A stretch of DNA of 64,000 nucleotides from Veillonella rogosae JCM 15642 (GTDB taxonomy: Bacteria > Bacillota > Negativicutes > Veillonellales > Veillonellaceae): NCBI RefSeq assembly GCF_002959775.1, contig NZ_PPCX01000010.1:124001-188000 (forward strand), given 5' to 3'. Both the position numbers and the translations under genes were made by a program. Under the pieces are notes generated by a model, which saw only the letters and a list, made by a program, of their open reading frames with translations, had not been told where the DNA came from and searched no databases. Positions 28,000 through 38,125 of this stretch are shown one piece after another. Numbering within the stretch: the first letter of the stretch is position 1; each line of letters begins with the position of its first letter.

Positions 28000-28050
28000 A
28001 TCGCCTCCACTGCTACTCATATATCGCTATTTGCGTAAAATTATTTTTGT

Positions 28051-28056
28051 TATACT
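28051..28056 (+). promoter_or_regulatory. Extended -10 promoter of the small membrane peptide
   Basis: TATACT preceded by TGT, an extended -10 (TGN). A poor -35 (TATTTG) lies 17 bases upstream. The start would be near 28063, giving an mRNA of about 190 bases that ends at the hairpin 28203-28245. Confidence 0.5.
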
Positions 28057-28113
28057 GTACCTAAGAGAGTCAATTGACGTGAGTTAGGTTCATCACCGAA
28101 AGGTGGTGATACT

Positions 28114-28191
28114 ATGACAAAACATGAAATTACATATGTAGTTATCATAATTTTGTTATCCGTAGTTACTATCATTGCCTTAGTTAAGTAA
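28114..28191 (+). CDS. 25-residue hydrophobic peptide, candidate type I toxin
   Basis: MTKHEITYVVIIILLSVVTI-IALVK (hyphen added): a charged start, one membrane span of about 17 residues and a terminal Lys. AAGGTGGTGA lies before the ATG, but ATCACC and GGTGAT around it can pair, partly hiding the ribosome site. Size, hydrophobicity, structured leader and an opposing antisense promoter resemble membrane toxins of type I systems (TxpA, BsrG, Fst kinds), though the sequence matches none I know. It could also be a small membrane regulator. Confidence 0.5.
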   Translation: MTKHEITYVVIIILLSVVTIIALVK

Positions 28192-28198
28192 GGTAATG

Positions 28199-28309
28199 AA
28201 AACGCCTAACGTAATGAGGTGGCTAGACCTCTAACACGTTAGGCGCATCATTTTTACCCAAATTTTAGATGAGCCTAACGCTACCGACACGTTGATTGGC
28301 TCTCTTTAT
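28199..28309 (-). ncRNA. Candidate antisense RNA opposing the small peptide
   Basis: On the minus strand, TTGCTA (28345-28340), 18 bases, TATAAT (28321-28316) is a good sigma-A promoter, with a start near 28309. The RNA would hold a hairpin GAGCC/GGCTC (about 28299-28270) and end at the 28245-28203 hairpin followed by TTTTC. Its last part is complementary to the 3' end of the peptide mRNA. Confidence 0.45.
28203..28255. terminator. Bidirectional terminator shared by the peptide mRNA and antisense RNA
   Basis: Outer stem CGCCTAACG (28203-28211) with 28237-28245 and an inner GAGGT/ACCTC stem. T5 follows on the plus strand at 28251-28255, and TTTT on the minus strand. Confidence 0.7.
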
Positions 28310-28442
28310 AAACTTATTATACTACAATTTAGTCATGAATAGCAAAAATCATTTTTATACAAAAAGCCTTATTATATCTACATTCCAAATAATTTATTAA
28401 GCACATTATTTTTAAAACTTCTATGAAATTTAATTTTAAGTA

Positions 28443-28480
28443 TTGCATAATTTTATCATTTGGGTTTATACTATACCCAA
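28443..28480 (+). promoter_or_regulatory. Promoter and overlapping dyad of the aromatic biosynthesis operon
   Basis: TTGCAT (28443-28448), 18 bases, TATACT (28467-28472). A dyad TTGGGT (28460-28465) / ACCCAA (28475-28480) is centred on the -10, so a repressor could also act here. The predicted start is about 25 bases before the leader peptide. Confidence 0.65.
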
Positions 28481-28504
28481 CATTTTAGAAAGGAGCAACC
28501 AAAG

Positions 28505-28594
28505 ATGACTAACCAAATTAGCCTCGCTACAAAACAATACTTTTATTGGTTCTTTATCCAACATACGGGTAAGGAACTATTTGTGGTGCGCTAA
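28505..28594 (+). CDS. Leader peptide of the aro operon, rich in Tyr, Phe and Trp
   Basis: 29 codons: MTNQISLATKQYFYWFFIQH then TGKELFVVR. Residues 12-17 are Tyr-Phe-Tyr-Trp-Phe-Phe, six aromatic codons in a row, which is far beyond chance. AGGAG lies 9 bases before the ATG. It precedes an intrinsic terminator and the DAHP synthase gene. The layout is that of a ribosome-stalling attenuator leader like pheL or trpL: shortage of any charged aromatic tRNA would stall the ribosome at 28538-28555. No such leader is annotated in the family to my knowledge. Confidence 0.8.
   Translation: MTNQISLATKQYFYWFFIQHTGKELFVVR
28563..28571 (+). promoter_or_regulatory. Antiterminator 5' strand inside the leader peptide
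   Basis: ATACGGGTA (28563-28571) is exactly complementary to TACCCGTAT at 28638-28646, the 5' arm of the terminator, and copies the terminator's own 3' arm (TACGGGT, 28652-28658). A ribosome stalled on the aromatic codons leaves it largely free to form the antiterminator; a ribosome that reads through covers it. Confidence 0.7.
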
Positions 28595-28630
28595 TTAAGA
28601 CTTAGTTATTATTAGTTGCTTAGAATAGTA

Positions 28631-28669
28631 AAAGGGCTACCCGTATTAGATTACGGGTGGCCCTTTTTT
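28631..28669 (+). terminator. Attenuator terminator upstream of aroF
   Basis: Stem of about 15 bp with one G-U pair (28631-28645 with 28652-28667), loop TTAGAT, then T6 at 28664-28669. It lies between the leader peptide and aroF, where it would stop transcription when aromatic amino acids are plentiful. Confidence 0.85.
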
Positions 28670-28727: not shown

Positions 28728-29741
28728 ATGATTATTACATTGAAACAAAACGCCGCACAAACAGAGGTATCTCGTTTACGCAGTGAATTAGAGGCTCAAG
28801 GGTTCGTTATTCATCCTGTAGAAGGCACGCGCTACAATATTTTAGGTCTTATCGGCGACACTGCATCCCTCGATGCGCGCCAAATCGAGTCCCTAGATTT
28901 CGTAGATAAAGTAACTCGTATTCAAGAACCATACAAAAAAGCAAACCGTAAATTCCATCCAGATGATTCTGTAATCAACGTAGGTGGTGCACTTATCGGT
29001 GGTGGTCACTTCGCAGTTATGGCTGGCCCTTGCTCCGTAGAAACACCGGAACAAGTAATTGAAACTGCAAAAGCTTGTAAAGAAGCAGGCGCTACAATCC
29101 TTCGTGGCGGTGCTTTCAAACCTCGTACATCCCCATACTCCTTCCAAGGCATGGGTCCAGAAGGTTTGGAATTGTTAGAGCTTGCTAAAAAAGAAACAGG
29201 TCTTCCTATCGTTTCTGAAGTAATGGATATTTCCCAATTACAATACTTCGATAACGTAGATATGCTTCAAATCGGTGCTCGTAACATGCAAAACTTCACA
29301 CTTTTAAAAGAAGTAGGTAAATTAAACAAACCAATTCTTTTAAAACGTGGTTTGTCATCTACATACGAAGAATGGTTGATGGCTGCTGAATACATCATGT
29401 CCGAAGGCAATGAACAAGTTGTATTATGCGAACGCGGTATCCGCACATTCGAAACTAAAACTCGCAATACCTTAGATGTAACAGCAATCCCTATGATGCA
29501 CGAATTATCTCACTTGCCAATCATCATGGACCCTAGCCACGCAGCAGGCATGAGCCGCATGGTTCGTCCACTTTCTCTTGCATCTGTAGGCGGCGGTGCA
29601 GACGGCCTTATGATCGAAGTTCACAACGATCCATCCAAAGCATTATGCGATGGCCCTCAAGCATTACGTCCAGACCAATTCACTAGCCTTATGAAAGAAG
29701 TTATCGCATTGCGCCAAGCATTGGTAGAATGCACTAAATAA
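28728..29741 (+). CDS. aroF: DAHP synthase (3-deoxy-7-phosphoheptulonate synthase), type I-beta
   Basis: 337 residues. The first about 70 residues are the ferredoxin-like regulatory domain of the Thermotoga-type enzyme, followed by the barrel with AGPCSVETPEQVIETA, RGGAFKPRTSPYSFQG, QIGARNMQNF, LKRG, CERGIRTFE and DPSHAAG. It condenses phosphoenolpyruvate and erythrose 4-phosphate, the first shikimate step. The N-terminal domain mediates Tyr/Phe feedback in relatives. AAGGAGG lies 7 bases before the ATG; it is the first enzyme gene behind the attenuator. Confidence 0.95.
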   Translation: MIITLKQNAAQTEVSRLRSELEAQGFVIHPVEGTRYNILGLIGDTASLDARQIESLDFVDKVTRIQEPYKKANRKFHPDDSVINVGGALIGGGHFAVMAGPCSVETPEQVIETAKACKEAGATILRGGAFKPRTSPYSFQGMGPEGLELLELAKKETGLPIVSEVMDISQLQYFDNVDMLQIGARNMQNFTLLKEVGKLNKPILLKRGLSSTYEEWLMAAEYIMSEGNEQVVLCERGIRTFETKTRNTLDVTAIPMMHELSHLPIIMDPSHAAGMSRMVRPLSLASVGGGADGLMIEVHNDPSKALCDGPQALRPDQFTSLMKEVIALRQALVECTK

Positions 29742-29815: not shown

Positions 29816-30868
29816 ATGACTCGCATCCATATTAACGCGTCCACACCGTATGACGTTGTCATCGAGGAAGGCGCTTTACAACGCATCACCGATTATATTA
29901 AACCGTTAAAACCAAATTGTCGTGTTATCATCGTCAGCGATAGCAATGTGGCACCGCACTATTTGGACTCTGTGAAAGCAAATATGGAACATGCCGGTTA
30001 TACTGTTTGTGATTATGTATTCCCTGCTGGTGAAAGCTCCAAAAATGCACACCAACTCATCGATTTAGTAGAATACATGGCGGCCCAATCGTTAACCCGT
30101 AAAGATCTTCTCATCGCCCTTGGCGGTGGTGTTGTAGGCGATATGGCAGGCTTTGCAGCAGCTACCTACTTACGTGGTATCGACTATGTACAGGTTCCTA
30201 CCTCTCTATTAGCCGCCGTAGACTCCTCTGTAGGCGGTAAAACAGCAGTCAATCTCGAAGCGGGTAAAAACCTTTGGGGTGCTTTCAAACAACCTATCCT
30301 CGTCCTCTGTGATCCTACAACCCTCAACACATTGCCAGACATGGAATGGAAAAATGGTTGTGGGGAAATTATCAAATATGGTTTCCTCGATGTACCAGGT
30401 TTATTAACCCAACTCGAACATAAACCATTAATTAAACATCGCGATAGCGTGAGTGCCGTTATCGCTCGCTGCGTTCAAGCAAAGGCTGATATCGTGGAAC
30501 AAGATGAACGCGAATCCGGTGTTCGTGCCCTCTTAAACCTAGGTCATACCTTTGGTCATGGCATCGAAAAGGCCAGTCACTTTGAAGTCCACCATGGCTA
30601 TGCTGTAGCCATCGGTATGATTCTCATGGCTCAAGGTGCTGTCAAACATGGAGAGTTAGATAAAGAGGCATTAGACAAATTAAAGGCCCTCATAGAAGCA
30701 CACGATTTGCCAACCACTACGACCATAACAAAAGAAGAAATCCTAGCAGCTGCTAAGCACGATAAAAAAAGCGAAGGTGCTACTATAAAAATCGTTGTAC
30801 CTACTAGTTATGGTCATAGCGAGCTCAAGGTTGTTACCCACGAAGAGTTAGCAACCTATCTTGATTAA
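29816..30868 (+). CDS. aroB: 3-dehydroquinate synthase
   Basis: 350 residues. The NAD-binding and Zn-site blocks are all seen: PAGESSKNAHQL, LIALGGGVVGDMAGFAAATYLRG, QVPTSLLAAVDSSVGGKTAVN, NGCGEIIKYG, LLNLGHTFGHGIE and HHGYAVAIGM. Second step of the shikimate pathway, converting DAHP to 3-dehydroquinate. Starts 74 bases after aroF with AAAGGAA before the ATG. The small inverted repeat in the gap (GCTAGTATC / GATACTAGC near 29763-29790) may tune expression. Confidence 0.95.
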   Translation: MTRIHINASTPYDVVIEEGALQRITDYIKPLKPNCRVIIVSDSNVAPHYLDSVKANMEHAGYTVCDYVFPAGESSKNAHQLIDLVEYMAAQSLTRKDLLIALGGGVVGDMAGFAAATYLRGIDYVQVPTSLLAAVDSSVGGKTAVNLEAGKNLWGAFKQPILVLCDPTTLNTLPDMEWKNGCGEIIKYGFLDVPGLLTQLEHKPLIKHRDSVSAVIARCVQAKADIVEQDERESGVRALLNLGHTFGHGIEKASHFEVHHGYAVAIGMILMAQGAVKHGELDKEALDKLKALIEAHDLPTTTTITKEEILAAAKHDKKSEGATIKIVVPTSYGHSELKVVTHEELATYLD

Positions 30869-30974: not shown

Positions 30975-32243
30975 ATGCATTCCGTAACGAACGCCATTCC
31001 TACAGGAACGATTGCGTCCATTCCAGCAAAGGCCCATGCACACCGCGCATTGATTTGTGCAGCTCTTGCTACCTCTCCATCTACTATATTATTGAGTCGT
31101 ACCTCTAAGGATATCGATGCAACGATGGACTCCTTACGAGGCTTAGGGGCTCACGTAGTATATGAAAATAAAATTGTTACCGTTACTCCTGGCCCCGCTC
31201 CTGTAAAGGGCAATGTAGTACCTCACGAATCAGGAACTACATTACGCCTTTTGTTACCTGTAGCAGCATCCATCTGTAATGATGTAGATGTAGATGCCAA
31301 AGGTCGTTTACCAGATCGCCCACTCGAACCTATGCTAGGTGAAATGAAAGCGCACGGCGTAACATTCTCTCAAGATAAACCACCATTTACTATGACAGGT
31401 CGTCTTCAAGGGGGCAATTTCTCCATGGTAGGTGACGTAAGTAGCCAATTCTTCTCTGGTTTATTATTGGCTGCTCCTCAAATCGGCCTATCTACCATCA
31501 CGTCAACTACACCACTACAGTCTAGTGATTATGTAACATTAACAACTGAAACTATGCGCGATTTTGGTGTAGAAGTAGAGCACACCTTACCAGATACCGA
31601 TATTAATGAGGCTTTCACAGTCCCATTTGGTGCATCTTTCATCGGTCGCGATAGTTACCAAATCGAAGGCGACTGGTCTAATGCAGCAATCTGGATGGTG
31701 GCGGCTGGTATGACTGGCAAACCAATTACGATTACAGGCATGAACAAAAACTCTGTACAAGCGGACCGCCGCATCATGCAAGTTATGATTGATGCTGGTT
31801 GTGATGTTGTATGGGATGGTATGAATGTAACGGTCACAGGTCGCGCTTCTAAACCGATTCATGCAGATCTCGAGCAAATGCCTGATATGTTGCCTGTTAT
31901 GGCGGCTCTCGCTTGCTCTATTTCTGGTGAAAGTTCCTTTGTTAAGGGTGCTCGTCTACGTTTAAAAGAATCGGATCGTCTTGTAGCTGTTGCTAATCTC
32001 GTAAGAGACTTAGGCGGTACAGTTCGTGAAGAAGGCGATGACCTATATATCATCGGTAGTGGTATACTTAAAGGTGGCCAAGGTGATTGCGTAAATGACC
32101 ATCGCCTCGTTATGGCCGGCACATTGATGGCTCTCATCAGTGAAAATCCTGTTACACTAAAAGATAGCGAAGCTATCACAAAATCCTATCCAGACTTCTT
32201 TGAGGACTGGAACTTACTGGGTGGTAATGCACAACCAGTTTAG
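30975..32243 (+). CDS. aroA: EPSP synthase (3-phosphoshikimate 1-carboxyvinyltransferase)
   Basis: 422 residues. Family signatures: SIPAKAHAHRALICAAL, ESGTTLRLLLPVA, GRLPDRPLEPML, LRLKESDRL and the closing ITKSYPDFFEDW. Catalyses the sixth step, adding enolpyruvate to shikimate 3-phosphate. The usual N-terminal Ser-Lys-Ser at the active site reads Ala-Lys-Ala-His here (residues 18-21), a variation of the loop that binds shikimate 3-phosphate, while the later residues are normal. AAAGGAG precedes the ATG. Confidence 0.93.
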   Translation: MHSVTNAIPTGTIASIPAKAHAHRALICAALATSPSTILLSRTSKDIDATMDSLRGLGAHVVYENKIVTVTPGPAPVKGNVVPHESGTTLRLLLPVAASICNDVDVDAKGRLPDRPLEPMLGEMKAHGVTFSQDKPPFTMTGRLQGGNFSMVGDVSSQFFSGLLLAAPQIGLSTITSTTPLQSSDYVTLTTETMRDFGVEVEHTLPDTDINEAFTVPFGASFIGRDSYQIEGDWSNAAIWMVAAGMTGKPITITGMNKNSVQADRRIMQVMIDAGCDVVWDGMNVTVTGRASKPIHADLEQMPDMLPVMAALACSISGESSFVKGARLRLKESDRLVAVANLVRDLGGTVREEGDDLYIIGSGILKGGQGDCVNDHRLVMAGTLMALISENPVTLKDSEAITKSYPDFFEDWNLLGGNAQPV

Positions 32244-32315: not shown

Positions 32316-33410
32316 ATGGCATCTAATTTCGGTAAAACCATACAGGTATCTACCTTTGGCGCCTCTCATGGGTACGCCATCGGCGGTATTGTAGAAGGTC
32401 TACCTTGTGGACATACCATCGATATCGATGAGTTAAAAGCCTTTTTAAAGCGCCGTGCGCCAGGGCAAAATCAATTAACAACACAACGTAAGGAAGCCGA
32501 TATACCTGAATTTTTAGCAGGTATGGTAGACGGCATGCTCAGTGGTTCTCCATTGGCATTTATGATTCGCAACACATCCCAACACTCTAGCGATTACAAT
32601 AACTTACGCGACATCCCTCGCCCATCTCATGCGGATTTTACAGCTCGTATGCGCTACGGTGATAAGGTAGATATGCGTGGTGGTGGCCATTTTTCAGCGC
32701 GTCTTACAGCTCCGCTTTGCGTAGCTGGTGGCATCGCTCTACAACTATTACGTGAAAAAGGCATTGAAATCCACGGCCATTTAAAACAAGTGGGAACCGT
32801 CCAAGATGCACCTATTGATATGGTTCATCCAGATATGAAAGCATTAGCTAGTATCGCTACAGAGCCGATCGCTATGGTTGATCCAGAAAAACGTAGCGAA
32901 GTAGAAAACCTTGTAATGAACCTCAAAAAAGATGGGGACTCTACAGGTGGTATCGTTGAAGTCGTTGCTACAGGACTACCAATTGGCCTTGGAAACCCAA
33001 ACTTTGACGGTATCGAAAACCGCTTAGCCCGAGCAATCTTTGGGGTCCCAGCCATTAAAGGCATATCCTTTGGCGGTGGCTTTGATATGTGTGCACAACT
33101 TGGTTCCGAAGTGAATGATGCTTTCACCATGGATGGTGACAAGATTACAACAACTACCAATAATAGCGGTGGTATCCAAGGCGGTATTACCAATGGTTTG
33201 CCTCTCGTTATGCAAGTAGGCATCAAGCCAACACCATCCATTTATAAAGAACAACCTTCTGTATCACTTTCCCGAAAAGAGGACACATTGCTCACCATTC
33301 AAGGTCGTCACGACCCATGCGTAGCGCTTCGTGCAGTACCTGTAATCGAAGCTGTTACGGCCCTTGTTATTCTTGATTTCTTAGGAGATATTGACCATGA
33401 ACTTAGATGA
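32316..33410 (+). CDS. aroC: Chorismate synthase
   Basis: 364 residues. Characteristic blocks: FGASHGYAIGGIVEGLP, RRAPGQNQLTTQRKE, RPSHADFTARMRYG, GGGHFSARLTAPL and the C-terminal GRHDPCVALRAVPVIEAV. Uses reduced FMN to convert EPSP to chorismate, the last common step. TAGGAG precedes the ATG. The 3' end overlaps the next gene by 14 bases, implying coupled translation with pheA. Confidence 0.96.
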   Translation: MASNFGKTIQVSTFGASHGYAIGGIVEGLPCGHTIDIDELKAFLKRRAPGQNQLTTQRKEADIPEFLAGMVDGMLSGSPLAFMIRNTSQHSSDYNNLRDIPRPSHADFTARMRYGDKVDMRGGGHFSARLTAPLCVAGGIALQLLREKGIEIHGHLKQVGTVQDAPIDMVHPDMKALASIATEPIAMVDPEKRSEVENLVMNLKKDGDSTGGIVEVVATGLPIGLGNPNFDGIENRLARAIFGVPAIKGISFGGGFDMCAQLGSEVNDAFTMDGDKITTTTNNSGGIQGGITNGLPLVMQVGIKPTPSIYKEQPSVSLSRKEDTLLTIQGRHDPCVALRAVPVIEAVTALVILDFLGDIDHELR

Positions 33411-34536
33411 AGTACGCGTTAAAATTAACGATATAAACGACCAAATGCTCGCCCTCTTCAAAGAGCGCATGGAACTCTCCAAAGATGTAGCAGCAGCGAA
33501 AAAAGAAATGAACAAGGCCATTTACGATGCCAAACGGGAACGCGATATCCTCGACAAAGTAACGCGAGATGCAGGTCCAGACCTCGACCTATACGCACGC
33601 CGTTTCTTTGAAGCATTATTCAGCTTGAGCCGTACGTATCAGTCTGAACAATTATTCCAAGATAATGTGTTCACTGTTAAAATGAAAAAGGCCATTGAGC
33701 AGTCCCCTACATTACCTCCACAACGTGGCAGCGTAGCTTGTGCTGGCGTCTTTGGTAGCAATGCGCAAGTGGCGTGCGATAAATTATTACCACTCAGCCA
33801 AATTCACTATGTAACAGGCTTCCGTGCCGTATTCGACGCTGTTGAGTCTGGAGAATGTCAATTCGGCGTATTACCTATCGAAAACAGCTCCAATGGTTCT
33901 GTAAAAGAAGTGTATGACCTTCTAGAAGATCGTAAATGCTATATCGTACGCGGTACTCGCCTATGGATTTCTCACGATTTACTCGTGAAAAAAGGCACAA
34001 AACTAGAAGATATTCACACTATCATCTCCCATCCTCAAGCGTTGGGCCAATGCAGCCACTTCCTAGAAAAATTAGAAGGTGTAGAATTGCGCTCCTTTGA
34101 TAACACTGCTCGTGCTGCACAGCTTGTAGCGGCTAGTGATGATCCAGGTGTAGCCGCTATCGCCGCACCTCAATGTGCAGACTTGTACAACTTGTCTCCG
34201 TTGATGCGCAACATCCAAAACAGCGATAACAACTATACCCGCTTTATCTGCATCAGCAAGGACTTCCATGTATACCCAGGGGCTAATAAAATCTCTGTGG
34301 TAACTACAGCAAGCCACGCTCCAGGTGGTCTTGGTACATTGCTTACCAAGTTTGCTAACATCGGCGTAAACCTTACAAAACTCGAGTCTCGCCCTATCGT
34401 AGGCCATAACTTTGAGTTCTTGTTTTACCTCGACTTAGAAGCATCCTTAGCAGATCCAAAGGTATTATCTGTACTAGCAGAGCTTCATACATCCCAAGAT
34501 AAGTTCCGCTTACTCGGTAATTATCCTGAAAACTAA
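33397..34536 (+). CDS. pheA: Bifunctional chorismate mutase/prephenate dehydratase (P-protein)
   Basis: 379 residues from the ATG at 33397 (AGGAG 9 bases upstream). Three domains: AroQ chorismate mutase (about 1-90, LDEVRVKINDINDQMLALFKERM), prephenate dehydratase (about 110-285, with LPIENSSNGSVKEVYDLL and the active-site TRF in NNYTRFICIS), and an ACT domain (about 295-375, GGLGTLLTKFANIGVNLTKLESRP) that normally binds Phe for feedback inhibition. It commits chorismate to phenylalanine via phenylpyruvate. Confidence 0.95.
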   Translation: MNLDEVRVKINDINDQMLALFKERMELSKDVAAAKKEMNKAIYDAKRERDILDKVTRDAGPDLDLYARRFFEALFSLSRTYQSEQLFQDNVFTVKMKKAIEQSPTLPPQRGSVACAGVFGSNAQVACDKLLPLSQIHYVTGFRAVFDAVESGECQFGVLPIENSSNGSVKEVYDLLEDRKCYIVRGTRLWISHDLLVKKGTKLEDIHTIISHPQALGQCSHFLEKLEGVELRSFDNTARAAQLVAASDDPGVAAIAAPQCADLYNLSPLMRNIQNSDNNYTRFICISKDFHVYPGANKISVVTTASHAPGGLGTLLTKFANIGVNLTKLESRPIVGHNFEFLFYLDLEASLADPKVLSVLAELHTSQDKFRLLGNYPEN

Positions 34537-34601: not shown

Positions 34602-34633
34602 AATGGCTAATAGGTACCAGCCTATTAGCCATT
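34602..34633. repeat. 13-bp perfect hairpin upstream of aroE/K
   Basis: AATGGCTAATAGG (34602-34614) pairs with 34621-34633 around TACCAG. There is no T-run behind it, so it is not a standard terminator. It lies in the only sizeable gap inside the aro operon and may be a processing or translation-control element for aroE/K. Confidence 0.5.
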
Positions 34634-34659
34634 CTATGTATATTGACCTAGGAGGTCCT

Positions 34660-35895
34660 ATGAAATTTGGTTTACTTGGCCGTACGTTAGGCCATAGCTT
34701 CTCCCCTCGCATTCACAGTGCACTAGGGAATACAAATTATGAATTATTTGAACGCGAACCGAGCCAATTGCAAGAGTTCTTCGCGGATCCAGAATTACAG
34801 GGTATCAACATCACTATCCCATACAAGGTAAATGCCCTTGAAGCTTGTGATATAGTAGACCCTCGCGCTGAACGCATCGGCTGTGTGAATACGATGGTTC
34901 GCAAGGATGGTAAATGGCACGGCTATAATACAGATTACGATGGTTTCGTGTTTACTCTGCAACATGCTGGCATTGATGTAGCTGGCAAGGAATGTATTAT
35001 CCTTGGCGACGGCGCTTCCTCCGCTACTGTTCACGTAGCTCTTGAAGACTTAGGAGCTAAGAACATAGTTCACCTCTCTCGTAAGACCGCACCATTCTAT
35101 GGTGATGCGCCTAATTACTACGAAACAGCACAGATTATTATTAACTGCACACCGATTGGTATGTATCCTCATAATCCAGCTAACCTTATCGATATTACGC
35201 AATTCTCCAAATTGGAAGGCGTTGTAGATCTCATCTATAATCCACGCCGCACGATTTTGTTGTTACAAGCAGAAATGATGGAAATCCCTCATTGTGATGG
35301 CTTGCCATTCCTCGTGGCTCAAGGCGTTGAGGCTGCTAACCATTTCCAAGGTGAAAGCTTTGGCACAAAGGAAATCGAGCAAATCTTGCGCGATATGCGC
35401 CGCGAAAAGGAAAACATCATTCTCATCGGCATGCCTGGCGTAGGAAAAACTACAGTCGGCAAAGCGCTCGGTGAAGAAATGAGCCGTACTTGCATCGATG
35501 TGGATCATGAGCTAGAAAAAGAAATCGGTGATATTTCCACATACATTACAGAGCAAGGGGAACCAGCATTCCGTGAAAAAGAAGCGGAAATGATTGCAAA
35601 ATTCGGTACCCAAACAGGTCTTATTATTTCCACTGGCGGCGGCTGTGTAACAGTGCCTAAAAACTTCGCACACTTACGCCAAAACGGTCGCATTTACCAA
35701 TTAACACAACCGATAGAAAACCTATCTACTACCGGCCGCGTACTCTCTAGTGGCGGTATCGAGCGCTTACGCGAGCTCGAAGAAATTCGTACACCAATGT
35801 ATGAAAGCTTCGCTCAATGCATAATAGAACATAACCGCAATGCACCAGAAACAGTAGCAGCTATCCTAGAAGACTTCGAAGCAAACTTATTATAA
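34660..35895 (+). CDS. Fusion of shikimate dehydrogenase and shikimate kinase
   Basis: 411 residues from the ATG at 34660 (AGGAGG 4 bases upstream). Residues about 1-240 are AroE: LGHSFSPRIHSAL, INITIPYK, GCVNTMV, NTDYDGF, then the NADP loop ILGDGASSATVHVAL. Residues about 250-411 are AroK: Walker A IGMPGVGKTTVGK, IDVDHELEKEIG, FREKEAEMI and STGGGCVT. The usual AroK lid Arg region is shortened (TTGRVLSSGGIERL). The fusion supplies consecutive steps four and five in one chain. AroE and AroK are separate in most bacteria. Confidence 0.93.
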   Translation: MKFGLLGRTLGHSFSPRIHSALGNTNYELFEREPSQLQEFFADPELQGINITIPYKVNALEACDIVDPRAERIGCVNTMVRKDGKWHGYNTDYDGFVFTLQHAGIDVAGKECIILGDGASSATVHVALEDLGAKNIVHLSRKTAPFYGDAPNYYETAQIIINCTPIGMYPHNPANLIDITQFSKLEGVVDLIYNPRRTILLLQAEMMEIPHCDGLPFLVAQGVEAANHFQGESFGTKEIEQILRDMRREKENIILIGMPGVGKTTVGKALGEEMSRTCIDVDHELEKEIGDISTYITEQGEPAFREKEAEMIAKFGTQTGLIISTGGGCVTVPKNFAHLRQNGRIYQLTQPIENLSTTGRVLSSGGIERLRELEEIRTPMYESFAQCIIEHNRNAPETVAAILEDFEANLL

Positions 35896-36056: not shown

Positions 36057-36094
36057 AAAAGCAGTAGTTATTCCTAAGATAACTACTGCTTTTT
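36057..36094 (+). terminator. Terminator of the aro operon
   Basis: 15-bp stem AAAAGCAGTAGTTAT (36057-36071) with 36079-36093, loop of 7, ending in a T6 run. It closes the operon begun at 28443. Confidence 0.88.
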
Positions 36095-36255: not shown

Positions 36256-36873
36256 ATGAAAACAGTAAATCTACAAGTCCGCATCAATGAAGATCTAAAA
36301 CAAGAAGTATCTAGCATATTAAAGGCACAGGGACTATCCTATACCTCTATGCTAGACGCACTATTTCGTCAAATTATAAAAGAACGTCGCATTCCTTTCG
36401 CTATTGCGTTACCAACAACACCTACAGACAAAACACCAACGCCAAGTACACTCAACAATAACGGTACCTACGAACAACCCCAAACAACATTAAAGGCCTC
36501 AGATACTATAAATACATACGGAACATCAACAACAAACGAAATAGAAATATCCTTTGATAAAATTGATAAAACAGGCATACTCAATATCCGTATAAACCCT
36601 AAAGTCAAAACACTAACAACAGCTATCCTAAAAGAAATGGGATTAACTATATCATTATTGATTACACTAATCTCCAAACAAATACAATTTTCAAAAGCAA
36701 TTCCTAAGTCAGTAAACAAGCCTATCGCTTGTGACTCTATGAATGCAGACTTTCTTACTGACGAAGAAATCGACCAGCTACTGGAAATGGCATATATAGA
36801 TATGGAACAAGGTAACTTAATTTCAGCTGAAGAACTTTTTGAGCAACTAAAGAGAGAAGGTCTTCTTTTATGA
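36256..36873 (+). CDS. RelB/DinJ-like antitoxin with two ribbon-helix-helix domains
   Basis: 205 residues. Residues about 3-52 (VNLQVRINEDLKQEVSSILK, SYTSMLDALFRQI, RRIPFAI) are a DinJ/RelB-type RHH domain. Residues about 108-155 (ILNIRINPKVKTLTTAILKE, TISLLITLISKQI, KAIP) repeat the same fold after a Thr/Pro-rich linker. The C-terminal about 45 acidic residues (FLTDEEIDQLLEMAYIDMEQG) look like a toxin-neutralising tail. Normal DinJ is about 86 residues with one domain. A coupled toxin frame overlaps its stop by 4 bases but is broken. Confidence 0.7.
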   Translation: MKTVNLQVRINEDLKQEVSSILKAQGLSYTSMLDALFRQIIKERRIPFAIALPTTPTDKTPTPSTLNNNGTYEQPQTTLKASDTINTYGTSTTNEIEISFDKIDKTGILNIRINPKVKTLTTAILKEMGLTISLLITLISKQIQFSKAIPKSVNKPIACDSMNADFLTDEEIDQLLEMAYIDMEQGNLISAEELFEQLKREGLLL

Positions 36874-37054: not shown

Positions 37055-37080
37055 AAAAGTCGGCTTTCGCCGACTTTTTT
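37053..37080. terminator. Bidirectional terminator between the toxin relic and aroD
   Basis: 12-bp stem AAAAAAGTCGGC (37053-37064) with 37069-37080, loop TTTC; T6 on both strands. It overlaps the aroD stop codon. Confidence 0.9.
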
Positions 37081-37873
37081 AATGCACTTTTATGCGTTTA
37101 TGTTGTTGTTCATCGAAGACGCCATCTACGTCGAGGGTATCGAGGATGCGCTTTAGTTCATACACATCGATTTGACCCGGTGCCGACGCTTTGCCAGCGG
37201 AGGCAAAGGTCATAGCATTACCAAATAATGCACCTGCTGCACGTGTAACAACCCCCAATGGTCCCATGGCCATCGTAATGATTGGGTCAGCTGGATACAA
37301 GGCTTTAACTTCAGCCGTTGCCTCAAGGAGGGTTAATACATCCCCTGTTGTATGAGGCATAACAGCCATCTTTGGTACATCCGCCAAGAATTTTTTCATT
37401 TGAATGAGACGATTTACAATAACCTCGTGGCTTGGTGTACCATGGAAATCATGATTACTCATAACTATCGTTACACCATGCACCTTGGCAAACTCTATCG
37501 TTTTAAGCATTCTATCTTGATCGAAGAATAACTCAATATCGATAGCATCTACTAATCCAGTCGGAATAAGACGCTCTAGCATTGTGAAATAATCTTTGGT
37601 AGAAATAGACTTCTCTCCGCCCTCACCTTTTGTGCGCCAAGTAAATAATAAGGCACGGCCTTTCAACTGAGGCTTAATGAGCATTAATAGTTCAATAATA
37701 GAGTCAATAGAGTGGGCCCGCTCGTAATAGTCAATGCGCAGCTCCACAACGTGACACGGCGTATTACATGCAACCGCAGTAGCATCTAAAATTTCTTTCA
37801 TGGTTATGCCCACAATAGGAACACATATCTTTGTACCCTTATCACCGAGTACAGTATGACCGATACGGACCAT
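37079..37873 (-). CDS. aroD: Type I 3-dehydroquinate dehydratase
   Basis: 264 residues from the ATG at 37873 (AAAGGAG 5 bases upstream); the frame is open 27 codons further but without support. Active-site segments: VVELRIDYYE, MSNHDFHGTP (the catalytic His) and PKMAVMPHTTGD (the Schiff-base Lys), then TMAMGPLGVVTR and SAPGQI. It converts 3-dehydroquinate to 3-dehydroshikimate, the one shikimate step missing from the operon upstream, and is transcribed towards it. Confidence 0.94.
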   Translation of the reverse strand: MVRIGHTVLGDKGTKICVPIVGITMKEILDATAVACNTPCHVVELRIDYYERAHSIDSIIELLMLIKPQLKGRALLFTWRTKGEGGEKSISTKDYFTMLERLIPTGLVDAIDIELFFDQDRMLKTIEFAKVHGVTIVMSNHDFHGTPSHEVIVNRLIQMKKFLADVPKMAVMPHTTGDVLTLLEATAEVKALYPADPIITMAMGPLGVVTRAAGALFGNAMTFASAGKASAPGQIDVYELKRILDTLDVDGVFDEQQHKRIKVH

Positions 37874-38125
37874 AATAACTCCTTTCCGTCCCACACGGTG
37901 AGACAAATGACTTACCTTAAACTTAACTATATACCAATATTTTTGTAAAAGCAATCAATCAGCCTATATTGGATTGCTATTCACAAAAAACGTATGAAAG
38001 CCTGTTATTATGCACTAAAACAGTATTCTTAGATTAACGATTAACATCACTTTTTGTTATGCCCAAAACTTTAGGACTAATAAAATATGATTATATTATA
38101 TGAACCTTACAAAACTAGTTATACT

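Follow-up and report, generated by a model that had tools for sequence, protein, structure and literature searches.

A predicted ribosome-mediated attenuator with codons for three aromatic amino acids upstream of the aroF operon in Veillonella

The pheL, trpL and pheST leaders of Escherichia coli are single-amino-acid devices that serve terminal branches or a synthetase, and DAHP synthase is regulated otherwise in this bacterium. The enteric ilv and thr leaders are multivalent, with one leader responding to several related amino acids. For aroF, leader control has been described in Corynebacterium glutamicum, where the aroR leader upstream of the gene carries a Phe-Tyr-Phe motif and acts through ribosome-mediated attenuation (Neshat et al., 2014; PMC4046766, PMC11802643); phenylalanine is effective in this system and tyrosine is without effect (PMC11802643). 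The predicted uORFC-13-1 of Acholeplasma has 24 representatives and is confined to Acholeplasma and environmental sequences (PMC8632094). His leaders are known from Firmicutes (PMC2965389, PMC9413887); Staphylococcus has a Leu-rich ilv leader (PMC5794164). Our search of the freely accessible literature brought up no description of aromatic leaders for Negativicutes.

The leader described here lies in a 64-kb stretch of Veillonella DNA, C1:124001-188000 of genome G000 (the window, to which all positions refer), and its 5' region is flanked by a minus-strand GNAT acetyltransferase gene and by aroF, whose product in the host genome is 98% identical to AroF of V. parvula SKV38. Direct reading of the + strand places a promoter at 28443-28472 (-35 TTGCAT, 28443-28448; -10 TATACT, 28467-28472; spacer of 18 nt) and a Shine-Dalgarno sequence AAGGAG at 28490-28495, 9 nt before the ATG at 28505. 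The leader ORF (28505-28594), encoding MTNQISLATKQYFYWFFIQHTGKELFVVR, comprises 29 sense codons and the stop codon TAA (28592-28594). Its codons 12-17 (28538-28555; TAC TTT TAT TGG TTC TTT) specify Tyr-Phe-Tyr-Trp-Phe-Phe, exactly as the first-pass annotation of this DNA had claimed, so that a run of end-product codons stands ahead of shikimate and phenylalanine genes. The window contains a single run of at least six aromatic codons on its two strands, compared with about 0.07 occurrences expected under a first-order Markov model, and none of the 60 simulations produced such a run with all three amino acids. Since its Shine-Dalgarno sequence, ATG and stop codon are conserved, the ORF qualifies as the short translatable reading frame that a ribosome-mediated transcription attenuator possesses, and it is presumably translated.

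Downstream of the leader, six genes, assigned with Pfam, follow one another on the + strand with gaps of at most 106 nt: aroF for DAHP synthase (28728-29741), aroB for 3-dehydroquinate synthase (29816-30868), aroA for EPSP synthase (30975-32243), aroC for chorismate synthase (32316-33410), pheA for chorismate mutase/prephenate dehydratase (33391-34536), and an aroE-aroK fusion for shikimate dehydrogenase/shikimate kinase (34603-35895). A terminator-like site at 36057-36093 (+ strand) closes the operon after aroE-aroK. The aroF product is the sole DAHP synthase found in the genome, which contains no class II enzyme; the other PF00793 match is KdsA. Control of the entire pathway had been proposed for the leader, and this would hold for the genes of the aroF-aroB-aroA-aroC-pheA-aroE/aroK operon but not for aroD, which is found on the opposite strand (37079-37954), nor for tyrA and trpE, which are located elsewhere. 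We saw neither a leader nor a T-box adjoining tyrA. Directly upstream of trpE lies a T-box (RF00230; G000:C10:79879-80130, L201) that matches with an E-value of 3.7e-15 but scores below the Rfam gathering cut-off, and in our own reading of the alignment UGG occupies the specifier position. Hence, aromatic tRNAs seem to be monitored in this genome by two different devices, with a leader peptide serving the common pathway and a T-box serving the Trp branch.

Two further reading frames in the neighborhood of the operon deserve a mention. Just past it, positions 36256-36873 (+ strand) encode a protein of 205 amino acids with two RelB-antitoxin-like stretches. At 28114-28191, a 25-codon ORF for a small hydrophobic peptide (MTKHEITYVVIIILLSVVTIIALVK) is embedded in very strongly folded RNA (28050-28320) whose ends pair (28063-28081 with 28288-28306), a layout that resembles that of type I toxin mRNAs; the ORF has no Pfam match and, among the loci of other genomes examined, was found only in L083.

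The RNA of the leader region, with all elements on the + strand, can adopt alternative structures. Strand 1 (28547-28559), which comprises the Trp codon, the two Phe codons and another four bases, forms with 28567-28579 of strand 2 (28563-28579) a 1:2 hairpin of 13 pairs (-14.7 kcal/mol) that was absent from the first-pass annotation. Positions 28563-28571 of strand 2 (ATACGGGTA) are the exact reverse complement of strand 3 (28638-28646; TACCCGTAT), which belongs to the 5' arm of the terminator, and they contain the same TACGGGT that occurs in the 3' arm of the terminator itself; the nine-base antiterminator mimicking a terminator arm that had been claimed for this site is thus present. An inner antiterminator helix, likewise absent from the earlier account, joins ACTATTT (28576-28582) to GAATAGT (28623-28629); 90% of its cells are paired in relatives, and the two helices combined reach -21.8 kcal/mol. 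The intrinsic terminator (3:4), also correctly recognized beforehand as a strong one, sits between the leader ORF and aroF at 28630-28667, with 16 pairs (-27.9 kcal/mol) and a U-tract. Antiterminator and terminator share strand 3 and are therefore mutually exclusive, and the region as a whole folds 8.9 s.d. below dinucleotide shuffles. Given that the terminator exceeds the antiterminator in stability, the switch must operate kinetically, like that of trp.

We interpret these elements as a classical ribosome-mediated transcription attenuator, a reading to which we assign a probability of about 0.9 on the strength of the sequence and of modeled RNA structures. RNA polymerase would start near 28480, with a ribosome following on the 29-codon leader. 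When charged Tyr-, Trp- and Phe-tRNAs are plentiful, the ribosome would reach the stop codon and cover strand 2, which would pair with strand 1 after the ribosome's departure; in either case, strand 3 would pair with strand 4 and transcription would end at about 28668. When any one of these tRNAs lacks its amino acid, the ribosome would halt on codons 13-17 (Phe-Tyr-Trp-Phe-Phe) and mask strand 1, leaving 28563-28579 free for strand 3 before strand 4 emerges; the stall would also let 28576-28582 pair with 28623-28629, and aroF-aroB-aroA-aroC-pheA-aroEK would then be read. In this way, the cell can probably turn on the aro pathway in response to a shortage of Tyr, Trp or Phe.

The positions at which a stalled ribosome would have this effect were computed for 26 genomes with a simple equilibrium model that assumes a ribosome footprint. 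Each codon was put in the A site, the RNA was masked to 12 nt downstream, and the probability that strand 3 pairs with strand 2 before strand 4 exists was determined. The mean 2:3 probability amounted to 0.87 for Phe13, 0.96 for Tyr14, and 0.97 for each of Trp15, Phe16 and Phe17, compared with 0.10 for both of the flanking codons, Tyr12 and Ile18; in one genome (L121) it attained just 0.1-0.5. Footprint offsets of 9-15 nt shifted the window by one codon and always kept Tyr14, Trp15 and Phe16 within it. According to this computation, the control codons are sited such that a ribosome stalled on them frees strand 2; they occupy precisely the positions that attenuation demands, with a codon for each aromatic amino acid at the center. 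The earlier proposal that a single leader senses all three aromatic amino acids gains from the Tyr, Trp and Phe codons in the computed window, but the response is deduced from the codons; the operation of the switch in vivo and an effect of every one of these amino acids on it are likewise inferred from the sequence.

A leader of recognizably the same kind precedes aroF in 26 of the 27 Veillonellaceae genomes that carry this aroF, and the 27th (L120) has a divergent leader with YAYFNF. The peptide reads QYFYWFFIQRTGKELF in Veillonella (conserved core QYFYWFFIQ.TGKELF), QYFYFWFFIQSTGKGLF in the sister genus g4 (core QYFYFWFFIQ.TGKGLF), and NTF[FY]WFFIQTTGKELF in the sister genus g3 (core NTF[FY]WFFI..[TA]GK.LF). 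Although the leader of L094, a divergent genome, is situated 357 nt upstream, it retains YAYFWYF. Nearly all 27 genomes have kept a TTGC.. element together with a TATAAT-like box, and a GGAG-type Shine-Dalgarno sequence is likewise retained in relatives. A covariance model of the attenuator (R1) found the aroF site as its sole convincing match in the genome; the one weak match that was read (C10:129512) looks like an ordinary terminator. Neither did NCBIfam profiles match the leader peptides to any family, nor did an exact-motif scan of viral contigs give a match.

Pair counts on the family alignment (A1) bear on the three structures to different degrees. The terminator is paired to 93.7% in relatives (36-58% when slid), with five pairs changed on both sides and 16 such cells, compared with 3.7 in shuffles. 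The 1:2 hairpin is paired to 98.4%, and its covariation score exceeds those of all 500 shuffles. Pairing of the antiterminator amounts to 92.6% (32-41% when slid), but this element is almost invariant, with one covarying pair and no more covariation than in shuffles; it is conserved rather than proven by covariation. Scarce 2:3 covariation is to be expected because the strands double as codons (strand 2) and as part of the terminator (strand 3). The first-pass annotation had tied its reading to covariation upstream of aroF and to conservation of the aromatic codons and of both alternative pairings in relatives; in Veillonellaceae, the codons and the pairings are indeed conserved, and paired changes support the terminator and the 1:2 hairpin.

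To cover a wider range of genomes, we scanned 400 nt upstream of aroF for short ORFs with at least five aromatic residues in eight. Such a leader is present in 26 of 27 genomes of the family, 22 of 24 of the order's other families, and 34 of 39 in the rest of the class (Negativicutes). Outside the class, where the sample consists of the best AroF matches in the collection and is not a survey, 56 of 72 loci, mostly from Clostridia, have one. Opposite-strand controls yielded 2 (family), 0 (order), 1 (class) and 5 (outside) hits, and shuffles 2.5-5.6%. Trp forms part of the aromatic cluster in 24/27 (family), 17/22 (order), 28/36 (rest of the class) and 10/55 (outside the class) leaders, counts that are non-independent because the genomes are related. 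From these sequences, Trp looks like a Negativicutes feature, with leaders outside the class being mostly of the Tyr/Phe type. Among the mostly clostridial loci L009-L082, most aroF genes have Tyr/Phe-rich short ORFs (e.g., AAEYFYFYF), usually without Trp.

The core S-[WQR]-[GS]-Y-x-F-S-[AFV]-G-[YF]-F is common to many leaders from the rest of the class (other Negativicutes, L125-L188). A hairpin joins their S-x-G codons, and W/Q in one arm co-varies with A/F in the other (arm variants GCTGGGGCTA/TAGCGCCGGC and ACCAAAGCTA/TAGCTTTGGC); this pairing beats all 1000 re-pairings, although the best of three registers was chosen, which favors the observed pairing. Beyond Veillonellaceae, no one partner that would form a 2:3 antiterminator throughout the class emerged consistently from duplex and stall scans; at some of these loci, ATGAG after the core may pair with CTCAT in the terminator and is a candidate. 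The terminators of the other Negativicutes (L125-L188) often share GGCTC in the 5' arm. In family f13 (L163, L185), a T-box-like RNA takes the place of the aromatic leader before aroF, a swap of the sensing device.

The most serious competitor is a narrower version of the attenuator reading, so that the confidences in the two overlap: the same device may respond to fewer than three amino acids, Phe being the likeliest and Trp perhaps another, with the remaining aromatic codons being tuned by RNA pairing or their amino acids being too well supplied to cause a stall. We give this a sizeable minority chance. The aroR leader of C. glutamicum, with its Phe-Tyr-Phe, provides a precedent in responding to Phe and not to Tyr (PMC11802643), and the Trp codon and two Phe codons of the Veillonella leader lie within strand 1, where an RNA hairpin alone would keep them. 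Most g3 leaders are devoid of Tyr, those of L110 and L116 have a Gly codon instead of the Trp codon, and trpE has its own T-box. A response to all three amino acids is favored by the position of Tyr14, Trp15 and Phe16, all inside the computed switch window, by the retention throughout Veillonella and g4 of Tyr12 and Tyr14, which lie outside strand 1, and by the class-wide leaders, most of which retain all three amino acids.

Conservation of the non-aromatic residues IQ.TGKELF would also be in keeping with TnaC-like arrest of the nascent peptide by a free aromatic amino acid, but strand 2 encodes these residues, and RNA pairing accounts for them. Likewise, elsewhere in the class the non-aromatic residues and their RNA partner change in concert (SWG..SAG versus SQS..SFG), as pairing predicts. 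TnaC-type arrest on excess would also switch a biosynthetic operon the wrong way, and we consider it very improbable. An even smaller chance falls to a T-box or metabolite riboswitch accompanied by a chance ORF. The genome does have T-boxes, and family f13 has the T-box-like RNA before aroF; however, no Rfam covariance model (including those for His, Leu, Thr, Trp and Phe leaders and T-box RF00230) matched at the Veillonella leader with a gathering score, and none was convincing below it. We found no Stem I, specifier or antiterminator sequence of a T-box there, nor a T-box antiterminator motif in the Veillonellaceae aroF leaders, and the leader ORF is conserved as a protein. Control might instead be exerted mainly by a repressor, with the terminator as a passive roadblock. 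A dyad, TTGGGT (28460-28465)/ACCCAA (28475-28480), does extend over the -10 and had been put forward as a possible repressor site; it is not conserved beyond the nearest species, those of the V. parvula group. Its arms have decayed in L090-L093 and are missing from the sister genera, whereas the promoter and the attenuator are retained there, which makes primary repressor control highly improbable. Upstream of the leader, the sister genera (L108-L119) have a spaced TTGC..GCAA inverted repeat around the promoter; its g4 form, TTGCCAA...TTGGCAA, is unlike the Veillonella dyad.

Ribosome-mediated attenuation as such is already known; the three-aromatic leader and its wide distribution appear to be new. 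At somewhat less than even odds, the Veillonella leader belongs to a widespread but so far undescribed family that precedes aroF in Negativicutes and Clostridia, with Tyr/Phe as the common form; Negativicutes would have placed Trp codons in the stall window, and the charging of three tRNAs would set the flux into the whole pathway, with trpE read separately by its T-box. If so, anaerobic Firmicutes, for which one would normally expect T-boxes, would commonly control the first aromatic step by classical leader-peptide attenuation, and one leader could combine three tRNA signals. The Tyr-Trp-Phe order in a three-codon window would offer a clean system to study how a multi-amino-acid attenuator weighs its inputs. 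As a rule for annotation, the short reading frame left unannotated ahead of aroF in these genomes probably represents a regulator rather than a hypothetical protein.

The E. coli pheL, trpL and pheST leaders (PMC11802643) have the same 1:2, 2:3 and 3:4 anatomy and the same principle of attenuation by tRNA charging. The contrast with single-amino-acid enteric leaders that the first-pass annotation had drawn holds, but multi-aromatic aroF leaders are known in Corynebacterium and are common in Clostridia in our scan. Multivalence is shared with the enteric ilv and thr leaders, which differ in serving branched-chain amino acids or Thr/Ile instead of aromatic ones. In Acholeplasma, uORFC-13-1 likewise combines a predicted uORF carrying Phe codon(s) with an intrinsic terminator upstream of aroF; no Tyr/Trp run is described for it (PMC8632094). 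The trpE T-box of the same genome also reads aromatic tRNA charging (UGG at the specifier position) and controls an aromatic operon, but by direct tRNA binding and without a leader peptide. C. glutamicum aroR, likened here by its description, shares with the Veillonella leader a mixed-aromatic leader peptide before a DAHP synthase gene and ribosome-mediated attenuation, and differs in being actinobacterial and in its Phe-Tyr-Phe motif without Trp.
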